Source of the DNA: Puniceicoccales bacterium
GTDB lineage: Bacteria; Verrucomicrobiota; Verrucomicrobiia; Opitutales; UBA953
Assembly: GCA_031269335.1 (NCBI GenBank)
Contig: JAISZI010000015.1
Location: 1-47,146 of the forward strand
DNA length: 47,146 nt
Direction: 5' to 3'
The notes under the pieces were generated by a model. It was not told the origin of the DNA. It ran no database searches and was given only the letters and a program-made list of their open reading frames with translations. A program made the position numbers and the translations under genes. This document shows positions 8,470-47,146 of the stretch, in pieces (position 1 is the stretch's first letter; every line of letters starts with the position of its first letter).

Positions 8470-10140
8470 ATGAAACGTTTCTTCCTTTTTGCCATACATG
8501 CACTCGCGGTCACGCTACCCCTCACGGCAGCGATAGACACTCCAAACGAAACGCCGCGAATCGTCAACATCATCAACTTCATCCGCCAAACGGAACCCCG
8601 CCCCCTAAAGATATCCGACGAAGATTTATATCGCTGCACCGCTCTGCAAGTCAAACAACTTAAACAACTCAATCTCCGCGCTTCCTTCCTCCTGCAATAC
8701 GACGCCCTCATAAACCCTAAATACGCCGCGCTTCTCAAAGACGAAACTTTCCCAGGAACAGAAATCGGCGCATGGTGGGAAATCACCGAACCCCACGCCA
8801 AAGCCGCAGGTATAAAATGGAGAGGACGATTCCCCTGGGATTGGCATGCCAACGTCGGTTTCTCCACAGGCTACACCCCCCAAGAACGCGAACTTCTCAC
8901 TGATGTTTATATGAAAAAATTTTACGAAGTTTTTGGAAAATACCCAGCTTCCGTCGGCTCATGGTTCATAGACGCTCATACGCTTGACTATATGTATAAA
9001 AAATACAACATCACAGCGTCTTGTAATTGCAAAGACCAAATCGGCACCGACGGCTATACCCTCTGGGGCGGCTACTGGAACCAAGCCTATTATCCCAGTA
9101 AAAAAAATGCCTACATGCCCGCACAAAACACTTCGGCTCAAATCCCGGTCCCCATCTTCCGAATGCTCGGCAGTGACCCAATTTACCAATACGACGCCGG
9201 TCTCGGCGGTCGCTCCCAACACGTCATCTCTCTCGAACCCGTTTACGGTGCCGGAGGAAGCCGCGTCGGCGGTGGAAGTAAACAGTGGGTCGATTGGTTC
9301 TTCAAAGCCATGTTCGACGCACCTGCTCTCGGCTTTAATTACGCGCAAGCAGGACAAGAAAATTCTTTTACATGGGAAAAAATGCGGATCGGTCTCGAAT
9401 ATCAACTCCCCATTCTCGCCAACTTGTCCAAACAGAAAAAAATTCGCGTTGAGACACTCGCCGAAAGCGCAGCGTGGTTCCGTAGAAAATATCCCACTAC
9501 GCCGCCCACCGCGTTCTCTGTCCTCGAAGACTACCGCAACAATGGCAAAAAAACCGTTTGGTTTAACAGCCGCTTTTATCGCGTAAATCTACTCTGGCAC
9601 GGCGAAAAATTCCGCTTCCGCGACATCCATCTGTTCGACGAAAATTTTGCATCAGAATACGTCAATCGCGCCGAAAGAAAATCCACAAAATGCAGCTTTA
9701 CAACACTGCCCATCGTTGACGGGAACATCTGGAGCAACGGCAGCGTCTTATCCGGCTTGCGAATTGTCTCCGCACAAACAGGAAAAGAAATTCTCCTGAA
9801 AGAACCTCTCGTAAAACAACAAACACCGGAAATTTTAACCGTCACTTGCGAAACGGCGGACGGCGATTCTTTTCATTTCACCTTCAGCGAAGATTTCATT
9901 GAAGTCGCCTCCACGAAACAAACGCCTCAGTGGATTTTGGAATTAACAGCCCGAAAAAATGCACCTCTGCCATTTAGAAAAATTTCCGCAAAAAAAATAG
10001 AGGCAATCCACCGCAAATTCTCCTACACGCTCTCCTGCGAAAAAGGTAATTTCGTGCCAGCAAAGAACGAACCCCACCGCATCTTCTCCATCCAACCCGA
10101 TTCCGGAAAAATCCGCTTAAACTGCCGCAATGGTCGCTGA
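8470..10140 (+). CDS. Secreted protein of unknown activity beside the rhamnosidase
   Basis: A 556-residue protein with a signal peptide (KRFFLFAIHALAVTLPLTAA, cleaved near 21). The first 300 residues look like a barrel-type catalytic domain of the polysaccharide deacetylase/glycosidase kind. They contain VNIINFIRQTEPR, LKQLNLRASFLLQYDALIN, WWEITEPHAKAAGIKWRG, the Trp/His pair FPWDWHANVGF, SVGSWFIDAHTLDYM and a cysteine-containing CNCKDQIGTDGYTLWGGYW. The C-terminal 200 residues look like beta-sandwich (FHFTFSEDFIEVAS). Searching for a deacetylase Asp-Asp plus HxxxH set found no convincing match. It starts 99 bases after the rhamnosidase gene on the same strand, so both may act on one glycan. 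The exact reaction is not recognised. Confidence 0.65.
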   Translation: MKRFFLFAIHALAVTLPLTAAIDTPNETPRIVNIINFIRQTEPRPLKISDEDLYRCTALQVKQLKQLNLRASFLLQYDALINPKYAALLKDETFPGTEIGAWWEITEPHAKAAGIKWRGRFPWDWHANVGFSTGYTPQERELLTDVYMKKFYEVFGKYPASVGSWFIDAHTLDYMYKKYNITASCNCKDQIGTDGYTLWGGYWNQAYYPSKKNAYMPAQNTSAQIPVPIFRMLGSDPIYQYDAGLGGRSQHVISLEPVYGAGGSRVGGGSKQWVDWFFKAMFDAPALGFNYAQAGQENSFTWEKMRIGLEYQLPILANLSKQKKIRVETLAESAAWFRRKYPTTPPTAFSVLEDYRNNGKKTVWFNSRFYRVNLLWHGEKFRFRDIHLFDENFASEYVNRAERKSTKCSFTTLPIVDGNIWSNGSVLSGLRIVSAQTGKEILLKEPLVKQQTPEILTVTCETADGDSFHFTFSEDFIEVASTKQTPQWILELTARKNAPLPFRKISAKKIEAIHRKFSYTLSCEKGNFVPAKNEPHRIFSIQPDSGKIRLNCRNGR

Positions 10141-13463: not shown

Positions 13464-14789
13464 ATGCTCGGTCTTAAATTAAATCCAAACACACGGAGAA
13501 AAATTCAGCACTTCCGCTCGATCAAGCGCGGTTATTATTCGTTTCTTGTGCTAACGGTTTTCATCGTCCTCGCCATTGCGGGACCGCTCCTCGTCGGCAA
13601 TCGCGCCCTGATCGTCCGCTACCAAGGTCAATTCTGGTTCCCAACATTCGGCAGCATCGTGCCGGGCACCACTTTCGGCTTCGACTACGAATACGAGACC
13701 GATTACCGCGCCCTCAAAGAACGCTTCGCCCGCGAAAATAAAGGCGATTGGGTCGTCCTCCCGCCCGTCCCCTACAGCGGCACGGAAGTTTGCGAAGTCC
13801 ATGCGCCACTCGAATTACGCGACGGACGCTATTTTCTAAACGGTTCCCCGTTTGCCGAGGGACAAGCCTATTTGCTCCATCCAAACGGACGCCAACGGCG
13901 CATCTGGAGCGTCGTGGACGGGCACCTGCACGGTCTTTTTTCCGGCTACGATGAAAACGGCACGCTGGTGGAAAAAGGGCGTTGGGAAAACGGCAGCCTC
14001 GTCCGTTATGAACGCGTTGGCACCGCCGAGACGAACGCCGCCGCCTTTCACAAAGCAGATTTGGACAAATTGCGGTGTTTCCTCCCCTACCCTAACGCCC
14101 CCGGCGTAGGCGGGCACCTCCTCGGCACCGACGAATCCGGACACGACGTGTTTGCACGCCTTTTTTACGGATTCCGCATCCTGTGCACCGCAAGTTTGAT
14201 TTACCTCGTTCTGACTTACCTCATCGGCATCTCATTAGGCGGCGTCATGGGATTTTTTGGAGGGTGGTTTGACATTATCGCGCAGCGCATCATCGAAATC
14301 TGGAGCAACATTCCCCACATTTATTTGATTATATTTCTTTCTTCGCTGCTCATTCCGAACCTCTTTTGGTTGATGCTCATCATCGTCGCTTTTTCTTGGA
14401 TAACACTTACTTACTACATGCGCACGGGTGCCTATCGCGAAAAGGAACGCGATTACGTAGCCGCTGCCCGTCTCCTCGGCGCGAGCAACACTCGCATCAT
14501 TTTCCGTCACATTCTGCCGAATACCCTCTCGACCGTAGTGACCTTCGTTCCCTTCATGGTTGCGGCAGTCGTTTTTCAGCTTACCGCATTGGATTTCCTC
14601 GGATTCGGACTGCCGCCCACCGAACCAACCTGGGGCGAAATGCTCCGCCAAGGCACCGAAAACTTCGACAGCCCGTGGATACTTGCCAGCGTGGTCGCCT
14701 GCCTCGTCGTCGTGCTCGTTCTCATCACCTTCGTCGGCGAAGCCATTCGCGAAGCGTTCGACCCTAAAAAGTTCACGGTCTTCCGGTAA
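13464..14789 (+). CDS. YejE-type peptide ABC transporter permease with an inserted MORN-like domain
   Basis: An inner-membrane permease subunit of the oligopeptide/microcin C type (YejE), 441 residues. The first membrane span (about 24-46) is followed by an extracytoplasmic region of some 150 residues containing the characteristic WFPTFGSIVPGTTFGFDYEY. Next comes a Gly/Asp-rich part with turns like DGHLHGLFSGYDENGTLVEK and GRWENGSLVRYERVG, which resembles MORN-type repeats. The C-terminal half has the binding-protein-dependent permease spans and the EAA loop around DYVAAARLLGASNTRIIFRH, where the ATPase docks, then FLGFGLPPTEPTWGEMLRQG, typical of DppC/OppC/YejE. The partners expected in an operon (binding protein, YejB, ATPase) are absent here: neighbours are aroA and panD. 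Assignment to YejE rests on the leading insert and C-terminal motifs. Confidence 0.85.
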   Translation: MLGLKLNPNTRRKIQHFRSIKRGYYSFLVLTVFIVLAIAGPLLVGNRALIVRYQGQFWFPTFGSIVPGTTFGFDYEYETDYRALKERFARENKGDWVVLPPVPYSGTEVCEVHAPLELRDGRYFLNGSPFAEGQAYLLHPNGRQRRIWSVVDGHLHGLFSGYDENGTLVEKGRWENGSLVRYERVGTAETNAAAFHKADLDKLRCFLPYPNAPGVGGHLLGTDESGHDVFARLFYGFRILCTASLIYLVLTYLIGISLGGVMGFFGGWFDIIAQRIIEIWSNIPHIYLIIFLSSLLIPNLFWLMLIIVAFSWITLTYYMRTGAYREKERDYVAAARLLGASNTRIIFRHILPNTLSTVVTFVPFMVAAVVFQLTALDFLGFGLPPTEPTWGEMLRQGTENFDSPWILASVVACLVVVLVLITFVGEAIREAFDPKKFTVFR

Positions 14790-39657: not shown

Positions 39658-42600
39658 TTATGCCGCTGCAGCCAGGCGACGTTTTCGGCGGCGGCCGATT
39701 AGCGCGAAGGCCGCTATAAATACGCCGGAAAAGAGGCCGTAGGTGGCGGGTTCGGGGATGCCGGTGTAGCTGGTTTGTTCGAGCATGAGATTGCCTTCCA
39801 CCGTGAAAAACAAACTGAAGCGGCTGTTCATTATCTCCAACTCATTTTGATTGAAAATTAGCAGGGCGAGTGCTTCGCCTTTCTCGCGGTCGGTGCTTCC
39901 TGTCATGGTGTTTATATTCATTCCTATCGTGTCCAATCCCGACATGAGCGTAAATTTATCGTTTTGAGAGGGTTGAGGGATGTAGCCAAAGGCGTCTGCT
40001 CGCAGCGTTTTTCCGCCAGAGAGTTCGACTCCGGCACTGCCTCCGCCGCTGTTTTTGAGGGCGAGTTTGGCGACGTCTTCATTGACGTCTTCTTGGGCGA
40101 GGCGGAACACAAGGGTTACGTTCGCGCTGGTGTTTGTGCCAATTTTTATTCCTTCTCCCAGTCCCGTTTCTTGAATGGTAAACTTCCCCGGATTCACGAC
40201 GAGGGTTGAGTTCGTTTCCATCTGGAAAGTGTTCGTGTATATTCTCCCGCCGCCGCCGACATAAAGTGTCGCGGCACTTTTCGTGTAAAAGGTGGAACCC
40301 GTTGTTCCGTATTGCGTTCCGGCGGGGACGTGCAGGTGCAAAATACCGTTGGGTTCGACAGTGGTTTTGCCGACGAAAGTGCTGGCGTTTCCGGCGAAAT
40401 AAACGGGCATGCTTCCGGCTATCTTTAGAGTCCCCGCGCCTGAGATATTGCCGCTGAGGTATTGGTAATCGTTATTGTTTGCAAATTCGACCGTCGCGTT
40501 CTGGTGAATTCTTATTTCTCCGGCGAATCGGTTGTGGTAATAGGTTGCGGTGCCGTCGAAGGTCTCGGCGATGGTGCCTATGCCGCCGGAAATTTTCAGG
40601 TATGCGTTACTGGGCACACCGCCGTCGCTTCGGACGTTGAGGGAGCCTTGGAAGCTGTTGCGTTCGCCGGCGATTTCGATGTAGCCGCCGTTGAAGTCGA
40701 GTTTGCCGTCGATGGACGCGGCGTGTGTGTAGCCGTCGGCTCCGATCTCACCGTACCCGTGCCCGATGTGCCCGCCGAGGCGTTGCCCGTTTGCGTAATC
40801 ACTGGCGGTGTTGACGAAAGTTAGCATGGCTCCAGTCTCTATCTCAATCGCGCCGTTGTAGTTGCGCGTGGAGGTCAACGGACCTGAACTCCCCACGCTG
40901 TAAGCGAATTCCAATCCCTCGCCGCTGTTTCCGAGACCGCTCTGCACCGTCAGGTGCCCTTCTTTGACCCGGGTTGCGCCGCCGACGAAGGTTCCGTCCC
41001 CGACGGGAACTCCGTTGTAAGTATGTTCGGTGTTGAAGATTACCATGCCGCCTCCCGTTTTTTCAACGTTTCCTATGCCGGAAATGATAAAGGTGGGCGT
41101 GACTGCGTCATTAACGATCTCAGTGCCTTCTTTTCTGAGGACGAGGGTGGCGTTCGTGCCAGAGAGTTCTATCCCGTTGGCAAAGCTGAACTTATCGTTG
41201 CCGCCATTGCCGCTGGTTTCCGTTTCCTTATAGACGAGGGTGGCTTTGCCGCTATTTTCCACCAGAAGGATGGGCGAGGTGACCTTGTTATTAAAGGTGG
41301 GGTTCGCTTGGTTGCCGACGGTGATGCGCACTGGAACTCCCTCATACTGTCCGGTGCCGCCGACGGGGGTGAAGGGTCCTACGACGCGGATTTCGTCGCC
41401 GTCGAACACGAAGTCGCTCCCGTTTCCGAGGACGAGCAGGGAGTGGACTTCGATGGCGTTGCCACTGTTCGACACTTGCACGTCGAGCGTCAGGGGAGCT
41501 TCGGGGGGGGTATCGACGCGGAGGCGTTTGTCGAAAATCGCACGTTCTCCGGCTTCAAAAGCGAGTTCGCCCCCGTTCGTCACGGCATATTCTCGATTGG
41601 TCTCATAGAATTCGCTGTGGCGCCATATCTCGTTGGCAGTATCGAGGTTCCAGACCTGACCCATTGTGCCGTCCCAATAGAGACCCGGCAAGATGCGGTC
41701 GCCGATGTAGATTTCGCCTTCCTCAGCGAGTTTGTCGAAGCGCCACACGAGGTCGGTGCCGAGGTCTATCGCGTTGCCGCCAAGGGTGATGGTGACGTTT
41801 TGCCCCTGTGCCCAACCGCTATTGTCGATGAAGGTCGGAGCGTTGGGGGTGGTAAGGCTGGGACTATTAAAGAGGTCAACGGCGTATCCTGAAACGAAAT
41901 TTGACGCGTTGAAACTCGCGTCAAAGGAGACCTTGAGTGCACTGCCGGATTGGGCGGTTAGCGTGCCGGTGGAAATGAAGCCGTGGCTACCGTTTTCGGC
42001 GACGATGAACTCGATGATGCCGCCACTGTGCAAGGTCACGCTTCCAGCAGCATCACTGCTGCTTCCCGTAGTCAGGCTTCCGGCGGCACTGGCAGTGGCA
42101 TTAACCAAAAGTTTCCCGCCGCTGTAAATGTTTGCTGTGATGGGAGTTGTGACGGAAGTTGTCGCGTGGCCAACCCCTGCGTTAAGCTCCAGTTTAGACG
42201 ATCCCAAGACCGAGATGTTTCCGTTGGCATTGTTGGCGGCATTGATGACGAAAGTGCCTCCGCCGCTGGTGGTTATGCCGCCGGCGAAAGTGTTGCCAGC
42301 ACCATTGACGGTTGTTGTGCCAGTGCCTGTGTTTTGCACGAGGCCACCGTAACTGTTTCCCGTCGTGGCAATTTCGAGAGTTCCTACGTTGCTGTTGGTT
42401 ACGGTGTTATCGGTCGTGCCGCCCGCACCTGCGTAGTTGGAGAGTTTCAGCGCGCCGTGCCCGATATTGCTCACATTTCCTTTGACAGACGGGCTTGCTC
42501 TTTCCACGAGCGGCGGCGCGCCGCCCCCGCTGGTCGCTTCCGCGACGTCGGCGGCACTCGCATTGGCGATGAGGTGGATGCCCACGCCGGTTTCGCCGGA

Positions 42601-45600
42601 TTTGCGGATAAGCACGTCGCCGGGTCCCTTAAATGTCACCTCGTAAGTCGCGCTGCTGGAAGAACCTATCGTCGTGCCGTCGAGGACGAGTTTGCCGTCT
42701 TTGTCCAGAATAGTCACCGTGCTGTTGGCGACGACTTCGCCCGTCGTGGCACTGGTGCTGCTCGGACCTTTGTCGTTGTGGAAGGAGAGCGTCTTGTTTC
42801 CGGCCACACTGAAATCGCCCGCAAAGCGGTAGTTATTAGGCAATTCCAAATCGGCGTAGTCCGGCGCATCCGGGCTTGGCGGCGTACTACCACCGACATA
42901 AGCACCCGGCTCGTAAATACCTGATCCGTTCTCATAACCCGGCACATACCAATCTCTTACCGGGTGGATGGTGCCTCCCTTGAAGGTGATGCGGGCGCCG
43001 TCGTTGTAGCTGCCGATAGACTTCGGGTTGCCGACGTAGAGATGCCCGCCTTCGAGGACGATCCCGCCGGAGAGTCCGGGGATGGGCGTGCTGTCGTCAC
43101 CCGGCGGGTCCGGGTCGTTATCGCCGCGAATATAGAGGTGTCCGGCTCCTTTTTTATAGAGAACTGAACCGAGCGAACCCGTGATCGTTTCGTTTAATTC
43201 GACGATAGAGTCGCTGTCTGCGGTGTTGATGATGAGGTTGTTATAACGTGCGGCACCCTCGCTTATGCTAACGAGAAAAATGGGGAGGTTGATGCTCAGG
43301 CGGGCGTTAACATCGATGAGCACGGAGACATTGCCTTCTTCGCCGTTGTCGAGCGTGAGGCGGCTGCCGTTCACGTCCGAAAAGTTCAGCCCGGAGGCGA
43401 ACGTGATGTGCGCAGCTTTGTCCGTGCCTTCCACCAAGATCGAACCAGCCAACGCCACTTTAGTGGCATCGTCACGCACCGCGGAAAAACCGTCCGATGT
43501 GATGGGAATAACGAGGTTTGACCAATCCCAGTCGGCCGAACCCGGTTCGACCGTGGTGTCGAAGGTGATGAGATTCCCGATGTCCGTCAAAATACCCAAC
43601 GACCCCGGATAGCGGGCAATGCCCGGCGAAACCGTGTCCCGCCAGTTGGATACGCTGGGACCACCGCCCGACGGAGTGTAAACCCCTTCCCACCACACAA
43701 AATAGTCTTCAGAATTAGGTTGCGACGAGACGAGCGCCGCCAAATTGCCCGACCACACAAGCTCGTCGCCGAGCGGCAGCAACACGTTTTGCCCGTCGCT
43801 GTTGAGCATGACAATGGTGATGCCACGCGAATCAGGCTGCCCAGGCTGATCGAGATAGACCCCGCGCACAAGCTCGCCGCGCCTGTGCCCAGTCGTGACT
43901 ACACGCGTGGGTCCAAGGCCGTCGTCGGTGTCTCCCTGCCAATTAACAAAGTGAATCGCCCCGGCGTGGTCATCTCCTATCTGCCCAAAGGTGAAGAGGA
44001 TAGGCGCGCCTTCGGAGGGAAGGGCTTCGTTGGCGGTGAACTTGATGTATCCCACCGTACCGGCGTCGGCTCCGATCGTGCTGTAGCGCGTATCTGGCAC
44101 GCCGCCGCCCACGGAAGTCAGGCTCGCCCGCAAAGACTGCGATGTTTCAGCGAGGTCGAGCGTGCCCCCTCCGCTGGTGAAGTGCAGGTCGGCGACGCCG
44201 GAGAGCAGTCCCGCAGTCTGCATGGAGATCGTGCCGGAGTTGCTGATTTCGAGGTGGTTAGTGCGCAGGTTGAGTCCGATGGTGGTGGTGTTCGGCGTAT
44301 CTTTTAACATGCGGTCTGCCACGAGCCAGCCGAGGGCATCCGTCGCGTCAGGCGCAACGCGCCCGTGGATAGTGGAATTGCCGTCGAAACGCAAAATCCC
44401 CGCACCGTTGAAGCCCATGCCCGTGCCGCCTTCCCCGCCGCCGACTATGAACGCCGCCCCTTGCCCCACCAAGTAAAATGGCTGCGCGCCGTTCGGACCA
44501 GAGGAAACCGTGACCGCGCCGGGCGTCTCGACGACAAGTGCCGCCCTCCCGGTGGCGTAGTTGTCCGCTTGCACATCAAACGCCGTGTTATCAATGACTA
44601 CGACATTCCCCGCGCCGAAATATCCAGCGCGACCGGATGTGCTCGGCGGGGCGATGATCACGTCTCCCGCCGCCGCACGCCCGATAAGCGCACCGGCGTT
44701 CACGTTCGCTTGGGAAAAATTGTTGTTGTTGTTCGTCAACACGACCGCTCCGACACCGATTTTCGTAAGGGGATAACTGCCCGTGATTTGCGAATCTATC
44801 TGCAGCACAGCACCCTCGCCGGCACTGAAATTCATTGCACGCGGCAAGATAAGCTGCTGCGTAGAATTGAGAATAATTGTGTTGGCGCAATTTTCTACTT
44901 CTACTTCGTTCGTTTTTAATACGCTGATGGTGTTAAAGTTGAGGTTAGTAGAGCCGATTTTGATTTCATTGGAGAGCGTGCGCGTTGTTTTTGTCGGGTC
45001 GGTGCTCCACGGGACAAAGACCAAATTGCTATCAGAAGTAATCAGTCCCGTGCCGAAGGGACCACTCTCAAGTGTGCCGCCATTCATTACAGAGTCGGCT
45101 CCCAAGACAACGTAGAAGTTGTAAGTGGTAGAGCCGTTAATGTCCGTACCGCCAGAGTAAGTGCTTCCCGAATTAAAAAAGCGCATTATGTAGTAGCCGG
45201 CATTGTTGTAGTCAAATCGAAGTTTTTTGTTCGCGCCGCCCGAAATCACAAAATTCTCCCCAAATGCCGGTCCGATTTTTCCAAAAGAAGAACTCGTGCC
45301 AATCGAATACTGAGAATCAGGCCGAAGTATAAGTTGGGTGGCATCTATAGAATTGAGGTCCAATGTCCAATCTTCGCCTTGATTTCTGTCAAACATCAAG
45401 TTCCCAAGGAGATAGGAGGTACTAGCACTCCCTGTAAATATCAACTGATTGGTAATGCGGCGTCGGCGTTCCGCCGCGTTGGGGTCAGTGCCAGTTAGCG
45501 TGCTATAACCGGCATTGGTGGCATAGATAACGCTGGTACTCCCACTGATGGTAAGCGGTGCCGTTCCGAGTGCGTTGTCATTCCCAAGATAGAGATAACT

Positions 45601-47146
45601 ATAACTCCCCCCTAACGAAACCCCGTTCTCAATGATATTATTACCATTAAGATAAAGAGAACCAGACGAACCGCTCATTGAAATACCACCCGAAAGGATA
45701 TTATTACCATTAAGATAAATTATGTTAGTAGTAGCAGCTGAGGTTGAGGTGATGCCACCAAAGGAGTTGTCTCCTATAAGATAAAGGGTGATATAATTCG
45801 AATTTATCGAGAGGGAGGCGGGCTGCGTCGGGTCCAGGTCGCTGACACCGCCGACAAGGTATAAATATTTACGATAGCTCGCGTTCGTCACATTCGTAGT
45901 TATGGCATGGTTCCCGGGAGCAAGGAGAATGCCTGTGCTGCTCTTCGAAGCGTCTATATACAGATAGCGAGCTGCATTGCTTGCTACTCCGAGTACAGTG
46001 CCTTCCTGTAAGTCAATGCCGCCGTAGAGCAGAAAACCACCCGGGGTATTCACATGGTAGACGCTTCTCGTTCCCTCAACCCTGGTCACGGAAGTCGCCG
46101 AAGAGCCGAAGGTGACAAGCCCCTCGCCGAGCGGAGTGGCGTTTAGGTTGGCTGTGCTGTCCGTGGGATAGAGGATTTGCAGATGACCGATATTGTCGTC
46201 CCAAGTAAAACCTCCCTCGAAGGTGTTGTTGGAACCAGTGATCCGCAGATCGCCCCCGAGTGTAGCACTGTCTGCAATGCTTCTTGTCTTGATGATGCCA
46301 CCAGTGCCAGTGATCTGACCAGCGAGGATAACATAGCCCTCAGCGTGCTTGGCATTGAGAACGAGGTTCAGGTTGCTGTTCAGCTGAATAGGTGCGCTGA
46401 TCTCAAGGGTGGAGAGACCGCTGTGCTTTATTCGAGCGGTGACATCGCCGTCGTCCGCAAAAATAAGATTTCCACCGTTACTGCTGTTAAGGAAAAACTT
46501 TCGCGTATTGGTTTCAATATTGAGGTGGGCGAGCGTGTAGGCGGTATTGTCCACAAGGACTATTTTGCTGTCAAGCCGCTCGTCTATGTCGCGAAAAGTG
46601 GCAGATTTAAGCCCACCCAGAGATCCAGGGACATTGGCGACGGTCCCGCTTCCGGAAAGCCAATTGCCCGGCTCGCTCCATTTTACACCGGCAAAATTGG
46701 GCTGCGATTGCCCCGTCCATTCCGCCGTGAGAAGGGCATCTTCGGCGGGTTTAAGAAACCAACGCAAAGAAACACTGTCCTGCTCAACCGCACCACCCGT
46801 TTCATAGCCAGAAAATACGACGTTACTTAATTGTGTTGAGCTGAGAGAAGGTTCGGTGACAAAAGAAACATAATTTGGAGAAGTCGAGGAATCCCAACCG
46901 CCGCCGCTGCCCTGAATGAAAAAGACGGGGTTGGCGTTATCCCAGCTTGTGAGGCTTTGAAATTCCAATCTTCCCGACTCGCCGAGGACAAAAGAGCCTC
47001 CATTCGCGCCAACAGTCAACGCACCAAGCCCGACATCTAAATTAGTGATATCCAGCACGCCGCTATTTGAAATGGTAAACGAAGCTGTCTTGGTACCGTT
47101 TTCATCAAGCAATTGGTTCGCATTAGTAAAGCGCAGGGTTCCTCCG
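39658..47146 (-). CDS. Giant autotransporter-type repeat surface protein with PEP-CTERM tail, 5' end outside window
   Basis: At least 2490 residues; the frame is still open at the right edge (GTLRFTNANQLLDENG just before), so start and signal peptide are missing. The protein is Gly/Asn/Ser/Thr-rich beta-helix sequence made of autotransporter-associated beta-strand repeats (for example GGATRVKEGHLTVQSGLG and GGIVLEGGHLYVGNPKSIG). Three sections each begin with a Trp-rich module (TAEWTGQSQPNFAGVKWSEP; LVWSGNLAALVSSQPNSEDY; LYWDGTMGQVWNLDTANEIW). The C-terminus is a PEP-CTERM sorting signal: Ile-Pro-Glu-Pro-Ala, a membrane span and basic residues (RRRKRR). It lacks an autotransporter beta-barrel, so it is probably exported and sorted by an exosortase-type route. 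No exosortase gene lies in the window. Function may be adhesion or matrix formation. Confidence 0.88.
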   Translation of the reverse strand, partial: GGTLRFTNANQLLDENGTKTASFTISNSGVLDITNLDVGLGALTVGANGGSFVLGESGRLEFQSLTSWDNANPVFFIQGSGGGWDSSTSPNYVSFVTEPSLSSTQLSNVVFSGYETGGAVEQDSVSLRWFLKPAEDALLTAEWTGQSQPNFAGVKWSEPGNWLSGSGTVANVPGSLGGLKSATFRDIDERLDSKIVLVDNTAYTLAHLNIETNTRKFFLNSSNGGNLIFADDGDVTARIKHSGLSTLEISAPIQLNSNLNLVLNAKHAEGYVILAGQITGTGGIIKTRSIADSATLGGDLRITGSNNTFEGGFTWDDNIGHLQILYPTDSTANLNATPLGEGLVTFGSSATSVTRVEGTRSVYHVNTPGGFLLYGGIDLQEGTVLGVASNAARYLYIDASKSSTGILLAPGNHAITTNVTNASYRKYLYLVGGVSDLDPTQPASLSINSNYITLYLIGDNSFGGITSTSAATTNIIYLNGNNILSGGISMSGSSGSLYLNGNNIIENGVSLGGSYSYLYLGNDNALGTAPLTISGSTSVIYATNAGYSTLTGTDPNAAERRRRITNQLIFTGSASTSYLLGNLMFDRNQGEDWTLDLNSIDATQLILRPDSQYSIGTSSSFGKIGPAFGENFVISGGANKKLRFDYNNAGYYIMRFFNSGSTYSGGTDINGSTTYNFYVVLGADSVMNGGTLESGPFGTGLITSDSNLVFVPWSTDPTKTTRTLSNEIKIGSTNLNFNTISVLKTNEVEVENCANTIILNSTQQLILPRAMNFSAGEGAVLQIDSQITGSYPLTKIGVGAVVLTNNNNNFSQANVNAGALIGRAAAGDVIIAPPSTSGRAGYFGAGNVVVIDNTAFDVQADNYATGRAALVVETPGAVTVSSGPNGAQPFYLVGQGAAFIVGGGEGGTGMGFNGAGILRFDGNSTIHGRVAPDATDALGWLVADRMLKDTPNTTTIGLNLRTNHLEISNSGTISMQTAGLLSGVADLHFTSGGGTLDLAETSQSLRASLTSVGGGVPDTRYSTIGADAGTVGYIKFTANEALPSEGAPILFTFGQIGDDHAGAIHFVNWQGDTDDGLGPTRVVTTGHRRGELVRGVYLDQPGQPDSRGITIVMLNSDGQNVLLPLGDELVWSGNLAALVSSQPNSEDYFVWWEGVYTPSGGGPSVSNWRDTVSPGIARYPGSLGILTDIGNLITFDTTVEPGSADWDWSNLVIPITSDGFSAVRDDATKVALAGSILVEGTDKAAHITFASGLNFSDVNGSRLTLDNGEEGNVSVLIDVNARLSINLPIFLVSISEGAARYNNLIINTADSDSIVELNETITGSLGSVLYKKGAGHLYIRGDNDPDPPGDDSTPIPGLSGGIVLEGGHLYVGNPKSIGSYNDGARITFKGGTIHPVRDWYVPGYENGSGIYEPGAYVGGSTPPSPDAPDYADLELPNNYRFAGDFSVAGNKTLSFHNDKGPSSTSATTGEVVANSTVTILDKDGKLVLDGTTIGSSSSATYEVTFKGPGDVLIRKSGETGVGIHLIANASAADVAEATSGGGAPPLVERASPSVKGNVSNIGHGALKLSNYAGAGGTTDNTVTNSNVGTLEIATTGNSYGGLVQNTGTGTTTVNGAGNTFAGGITTSGGGTFVINAANNANGNISVLGSSKLELNAGVGHATTSVTTPITANIYSGGKLLVNATASAAGSLTTGSSSDAAGSVTLHSGGIIEFIVAENGSHGFISTGTLTAQSGSALKVSFDASFNASNFVSGYAVDLFNSPSLTTPNAPTFIDNSGWAQGQNVTITLGGNAIDLGTDLVWRFDKLAEEGEIYIGDRILPGLYWDGTMGQVWNLDTANEIWRHSEFYETNREYAVTNGGELAFEAGERAIFDKRLRVDTPPEAPLTLDVQVSNSGNAIEVHSLLVLGNGSDFVFDGDEIRVVGPFTPVGGTGQYEGVPVRITVGNQANPTFNNKVTSPILLVENSGKATLVYKETETSGNGGNDKFSFANGIELSGTNATLVLRKEGTEIVNDAVTPTFIISGIGNVEKTGGGMVIFNTEHTYNGVPVGDGTFVGGATRVKEGHLTVQSGLGNSGEGLEFAYSVGSSGPLTSTRNYNGAIEIETGAMLTFVNTASDYANGQRLGGHIGHGYGEIGADGYTHAASIDGKLDFNGGYIEIAGERNSFQGSLNVRSDGGVPSNAYLKISGGIGTIAETFDGTATYYHNRFAGEIRIHQNATVEFANNNDYQYLSGNISGAGTLKIAGSMPVYFAGNASTFVGKTTVEPNGILHLHVPAGTQYGTTGSTFYTKSAATLYVGGGGRIYTNTFQMETNSTLVVNPGKFTIQETGLGEGIKIGTNTSANVTLVFRLAQEDVNEDVAKLALKNSGGGSAGVELSGGKTLRADAFGYIPQPSQNDKFTLMSGLDTIGMNINTMTGSTDREKGEALALLIFNQNELEIMNSRFSLFFTVEGNLMLEQTSYTGIPEPATYGLFSGVFIAAFALIGRRRKRRLAAAA

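Follow-up and report, generated by a model that had tools for sequence, protein, structure and literature searches.

A predicted MORN-repeat insertion in the periplasmic region of a YejE-type peptide permease from Verrucomicrobiota

INTRODUCTION

The YejABEF importer has been implicated in peptide uptake, microcin C being one example (PMC10924461), and in Agrobacterium YejBEF imports muropeptides together with YepA (PMC9790009). Periplasmic elements of other importer permeases are known to engage the cognate binding protein: the P2 region of MalF contacts MalE (PMC3150292), and a scoop motif located between TM1 and alpha3 of DppB touches DppA, closing off the cavity beneath it (PMC12136057). 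MORN domains, in the best-studied structures, make protein-protein contacts, and lipid binding by them was not supported (PMC7725318).

Here we describe a yejE-type ABC peptide permease gene (ORF 13464-14789, forward strand, ATG start, 441 aa) in a 47,146-nucleotide stretch of verrucomicrobial DNA, the whole of which we refer to as the window. Its product resembles the YejE of YejABEF (PRK15021) in its permease core and in its N-terminal segment with the motifs VRYxGxxxFP, DYRxL, and PPVP, and relatives of the gene stand in clusters of yejB, yejE, yejA, and ATPase genes. Unlike that YejE, it carries a MORN-like insert of ~100 aa between TM1 and the core, and it belongs to a system with separate ATPases and dispersed genes. 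OppC and DppC (8z21, 8z1v, and 8j5q) share its core fold (TMt 0.68-0.77), whereas their TM1-TM2 region is shorter and lacks the MORN insert. The insert shares two 23-residue units, glycine-rich hairpins, and a profile relationship with MORN_2 (PF07661)/YwqK-type proteins; those proteins are free-standing, whereas the insert sits inside a membrane permease and matches the Pfam model weakly. Like MalF-P2 and the DppB scoop, it is a periplasmic addition to a type I importer permease that would be positioned towards the binding protein, but it differs from both in fold and position, and we claim no homology.

RESULTS

YejE (PRK15021) was by far the best NCBIfam model among the OppC-like subfamilies (E 2.6e-74, over two stretches), with a score for the ORF of 250 bits that lies below the model's cut-off of 439 bits. 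The permease core (BPD_transp_1, PF00528; aa 213-436, 14100..14771, +) was recovered by Pfam at E 1.1e-31 and by its nearest folds, and the closest solved chains, by sequence and by fold alike, were OppC and DppC. A basic cytoplasmic N-terminus precedes the predicted first TM helix region (aa 21-43, 13524..13592, +), which was placed by AlphaFold helices at 21-38 and 40-43 and by a positive-inside reading. After TM1 comes the ordinary YejE periplasmic segment (aa 48-104, 13605..13775, +), which aligns with insert-free homologues encoded beside yejB and yejA. The preliminary description had called the protein a YejE-type permease, a call that the PRK15021 and BPD_transp_1 matches uphold; judged from its sequence, the ORF encodes the YejE of an oligopeptide ABC importer of the YejABEF type, with peptide import as its predicted activity.

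The clade-specific insert, delimited by homologue alignments, a tree, and AlphaFold, occupies aa 108-206 (13785..14081, +) in the periplasmic TM1-TM2 region, where the whole loop measures ~22 aa in most insert-free YejE. An extracytoplasmic insertion between the first span and the core, proposed earlier from the DNA letters, is thus confirmed, and the DGHLHG / ENGTLVEKGRWENG turns that had drawn attention to it are found within it. AlphaFold modelled the permease from 74 homologues with a mean pLDDT of 92.6 (~91-96 over aa 110-180) and rendered the insert as a confident antiparallel beta-meander, with strands at 132-138, 144-151, 154-162, 168-175, and 178-184 arranged in tandem beta-hairpin units with a period of ~22-24 residues. 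Predicted alone, the insert adopted the same fold as in the whole protein (mean pLDDT 88). The structure prediction that the preliminary description had recommended yields antiparallel beta-hairpins in units of ~23 residues. Two of these units are MORN_2-like: unit 1 (EGQAYLLHPNGRQRRIWSVVDGH; aa 131-153, 13854..13922, +) comprises strands 132-138 and 144-151 and is supported by the insert profile, and unit 2 (LHGLFSGYDENGTLVEKGRWENG; aa 154-176, 13923..13991, +) comprises strands 154-162 and 168-175 and aligns with positions 1-22 of PF07661.

The Pfam MORN_2 model (PF07661) aligned over all 22 of its positions with aa 155-176, below threshold (E 0.021 with the whole protein and 0.0013 with the insert alone; 15.4-19.1 bits, below the gathering score of 29.6), and it matched just 3 of 52 homologue inserts. 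The window YejE was the only MORN_2 match reported in a search of the source genome. We rejected a single-sequence Pfam scan as too weak a proof of a MORN relationship and used profile searches instead. An insert profile built from 52-60 homologues was run against the 7,700 open frames of all collected loci, among which the free-standing MORN_2 targets had been retrieved by the Pfam model, independently of the insert. It recovered free-standing MORN_2/YwqK-type proteins at E 2.5e-23, 5.6e-15, and 1.3e-12, down to 1.9e-5; these proteins, all from related genomes, were the clearly significant matches outside YejE. Unrelated frames were weaker than 0.5, and MORN proteins that had been shuffled or reversed gave E 0.75 or weaker. 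Against 177,635 PDB sequences, the sole significant matches were the N-terminal MORN repeats of SET7/9 (SETD7) (E 1.3e-4), which fall at unit 2 of the insert (aa 154-176). Over 145 genomes of the phylum the profile found YejE together with further non-YejE loci, and all eight of the latter that were read encode free-standing MORN_2-type repeat proteins. Foldseek with the insert alone gave no significant match (TarM-like beta-sheets came first, SET7/9 ranked 12th at E 0.15, and TbMORN1 was among the matches), and we rejected it as decisive proof of a MORN fold for that reason.

Insert-bearing YejE occur in Verrucomicrobiales, including Akkermansiaceae (Akkermansia-like genomes), Luteolibacter, and Haloferula. 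They are also present in the family to which the window belongs, where the close members that bear names are Puniceicoccales/Opitutae MAGs. Going by sequence and isolate names, one sampled genus (f7/g21) appears to be Akkermansia itself, and the MAGs closest to the source genome appear to come from termite or roach guts. The site measures ~22 aa in the YejE of other Opitutales families, Pseudomonadota, and Desulfobacterota. Uniqueness to the window gene was rejected, since homologues across the verrucomicrobial clade carry the insert; one of the refuting outcomes named in the preliminary description, that YejE homologues have the segment throughout, holds within that clade and fails for YejE at large. 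In a tree built with the insert columns removed, all insert-bearing rows fall on one side of one branch (SH-aLRT 87) and a single change is needed, a topology indicating that the insert arose once, in a verrucomicrobial YejE clade. It is retained in all full-length clade members sampled and is present throughout the sampled Akkermansia-like genomes. Its dN/dS among close pairs (0.03-0.22) indicates that it evolves under purifying selection. The insert nevertheless changes faster than the core (59% versus 88% identity to the nearest member of the genus), and only structural glycines are near-invariant in it.

Three YejE from other families of the phylum (L029-L031) carry a different, unrelated segment of ~200 aa at the same site, which argues that the TM1-TM2 site accepts insertions; by these alignments, the region is an insertion hotspot of YejE. 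A further homologue (L026) has an insertion of more than ~200 aa at this TM1-TM2 site. In a separate observation, the YejE of Akkermansia-like genomes and of G066 (L003 and L005-L017) have an extra N-terminal part of ~70-100 aa with hydrophobic stretches, which is missing from the window protein.

In the window, yejE is flanked by housekeeping genes, with pgsA-like, pgpA, and aroA on its upstream side and panD and a gene for a class-V aminotransferase on its downstream side, and no yejA, yejB, or ATPase gene lies beside it there, just as the preliminary description had stated. Elsewhere in the window, positions 8470-10140 encode a protein of 556 aa whose start is signal-like and for which Pfam gave no match at E 0.001, and 39658-47112 (-) is a very long ORF of 2484 aa. 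In relatives with a MORN-bearing yejE, one or two ATPase genes come after an array in the order yejB-yejE-yejA. The genome search for partner genes proposed earlier recovered a candidate YejB on contig C48 and a candidate YejA on C23, together with four candidates for the ATPases (C99, C71, C7, and C46); the notion that the importer is absent from the source genome was rejected on the strength of these candidates. The term orphan accordingly applies locally and not functionally: with partner candidates on other contigs and the cluster intact in relatives, this yejE appears to have been orphaned by the break-up of a cluster, as opposed to encoding a lone permease. The source assembly is fragmented (113 contigs), and yejA, yejB, and yejE lie well inside their contigs. 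Within the genus, yejB stands beside yejE in two genomes (G150 and G151) and on a different contig in four (G145, G147, G148, and G152). The Opp peptide importer genes of the source genome are dispersed as well (contigs C88, C40, C22, C99, C71, C7, and C46), so that cluster break-up looks genome-wide.

The Yej ATPases of the source genome would be either the candidate pair C7/C46, which has synteny with a family member in its favor, or C99/C71. The insert-bearing relatives checked encode the ATPase halves in different or slightly overlapping frames, and in the source genome the halves lie on separate contigs; neither shows the single two-domain YejF of E. coli. Insert-free relatives vary in their ATPase arrangement, and one (L129) looks fused. 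Separate halves lower the identity with the E. coli Yej system and leave membership in the YejE permease family unaffected.

In most genomes with a MORN-bearing YejE, YejB has an insert of its own in the TM1-TM2 periplasmic region (L139 and L140-L167). This YejB insert is variable (roughly 65-130 aa), is not MORN-like by eye, and is unrelated to that of YejE. It is also found in a few genomes whose YejE has no MORN, and it is missing from the YejB of the source genome (L036/L138, G000:C48:27185-28237) and of G146, probably through secondary loss. The two inserts are concordant in 58 of 61 genomes, a figure that reduces to one independent comparison; because there is only one independent event, the co-occurrence is statistically uninformative, and we rejected a statistical link. 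The source genome, which keeps the YejE MORN and has lost the YejB insert, argues that the two are not strictly dependent.

DISCUSSION

Any glycine-rich beta-meander might look like a MORN repeat, and the sub-threshold Pfam scores, the 3 of 52 inserts matched, and the precedence of TarM-type beta-sheets over MORN in Foldseek, where none was significant, would all suit a superficial resemblance. It is MORN proteins, however, that the profile picks out when real targets are set against shuffled ones and when the whole PDB is searched, and by these comparisons a superficial likeness is largely refuted and extremely improbable. The profile matches to MORN_2 proteins (to E 2.5e-23) and to SET7/9 (E 1.3e-4) substantiate the MORN resemblance first noticed in the turns: by profile comparison, the insert is truly related to MORN repeats and consists of approximately two MORN_2 repeats with flanking strands.

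What the MORN domain does is a question of graded probabilities. The preliminary description suggested substrate or envelope binding; we consider docking or gating at least as plausible by analogy. Both Yej inserts lie in the periplasmic TM1-TM2 region, which is also the part of DppB that bears the scoop. The DppB scoop, MalF-P2, and the protein contacts made by MORN domains together favor a periplasmic protein-docking or gating platform for YejA and/or YejB in a YejABEF-type importer, a proposal to which we give an even chance. A role as an envelope anchor, in which the insert would bind peptidoglycan, lipid, or an outer-membrane or periplasmic partner and keep the importer near a substrate source such as muropeptides, suits its periplasmic location and the muropeptide import by Agrobacterium YejBEF with YepA (PMC9790009); MORN lipid binding has, however, been re-examined and found unsupported in TbMORN1 and its relatives (PMC7725318), and we regard such anchoring as unlikely. 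We likewise judge it unlikely that the insert is a functionless passenger tolerated in a permissive loop: unrelated inserts of ~180 aa or more at the same site in the YejE of other lineages (among them L029-L031) and the faster evolution of the insert speak for this, but its retention in every full-length clade member sampled and the purifying selection upon it speak against. Direct binding or filtering of substrate, which would extend the specificity of the importer, accords with a position that seems to adjoin the periplasmic entrance of a peptide importer; yet recognition in this importer class rests mainly with the binding protein, and the sequence of the insert varies much more than that of the core, with near-invariance limited to its structural glycines, so that this role appears quite improbable.

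Under the docking or gating proposal, the MORN domain would lie next to the entrance of the translocation path, where it would contact YejA, the enlarged TM1-TM2 region of YejB, or both during peptide hand-over. The window YejE would find its partners in trans: YejB from C48, YejA from C23, and two separate ATPases, from either C7/C46 or C99/C71. We offer only tentatively, as possible, an extension of this proposal in which the verrucomicrobial Yej system, including that of Akkermansia-like gut bacteria, has a two-part periplasmic vestibule (YejE MORN plus the YejB domain) that docks YejA and controls peptide hand-over, resembling MalF-P2 but evolved separately, out of a MORN repeat.

In the literature searched, which was largely open-access, we found no study of a MORN-bearing ABC permease or of Akkermansia YejE. 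To our knowledge, hardly any function has been assigned to the MORN_2/YwqK proteins of bacteria, and the YejE insert gives the bacterial MORN repeat a concrete molecular setting. Comparing YejE with and without the insert offers a natural way to study the engagement of the binding protein by type I peptide importers, and the Akkermansia-like genomes that carry a MORN YejE provide a setting in which the role of the insert could be tested.
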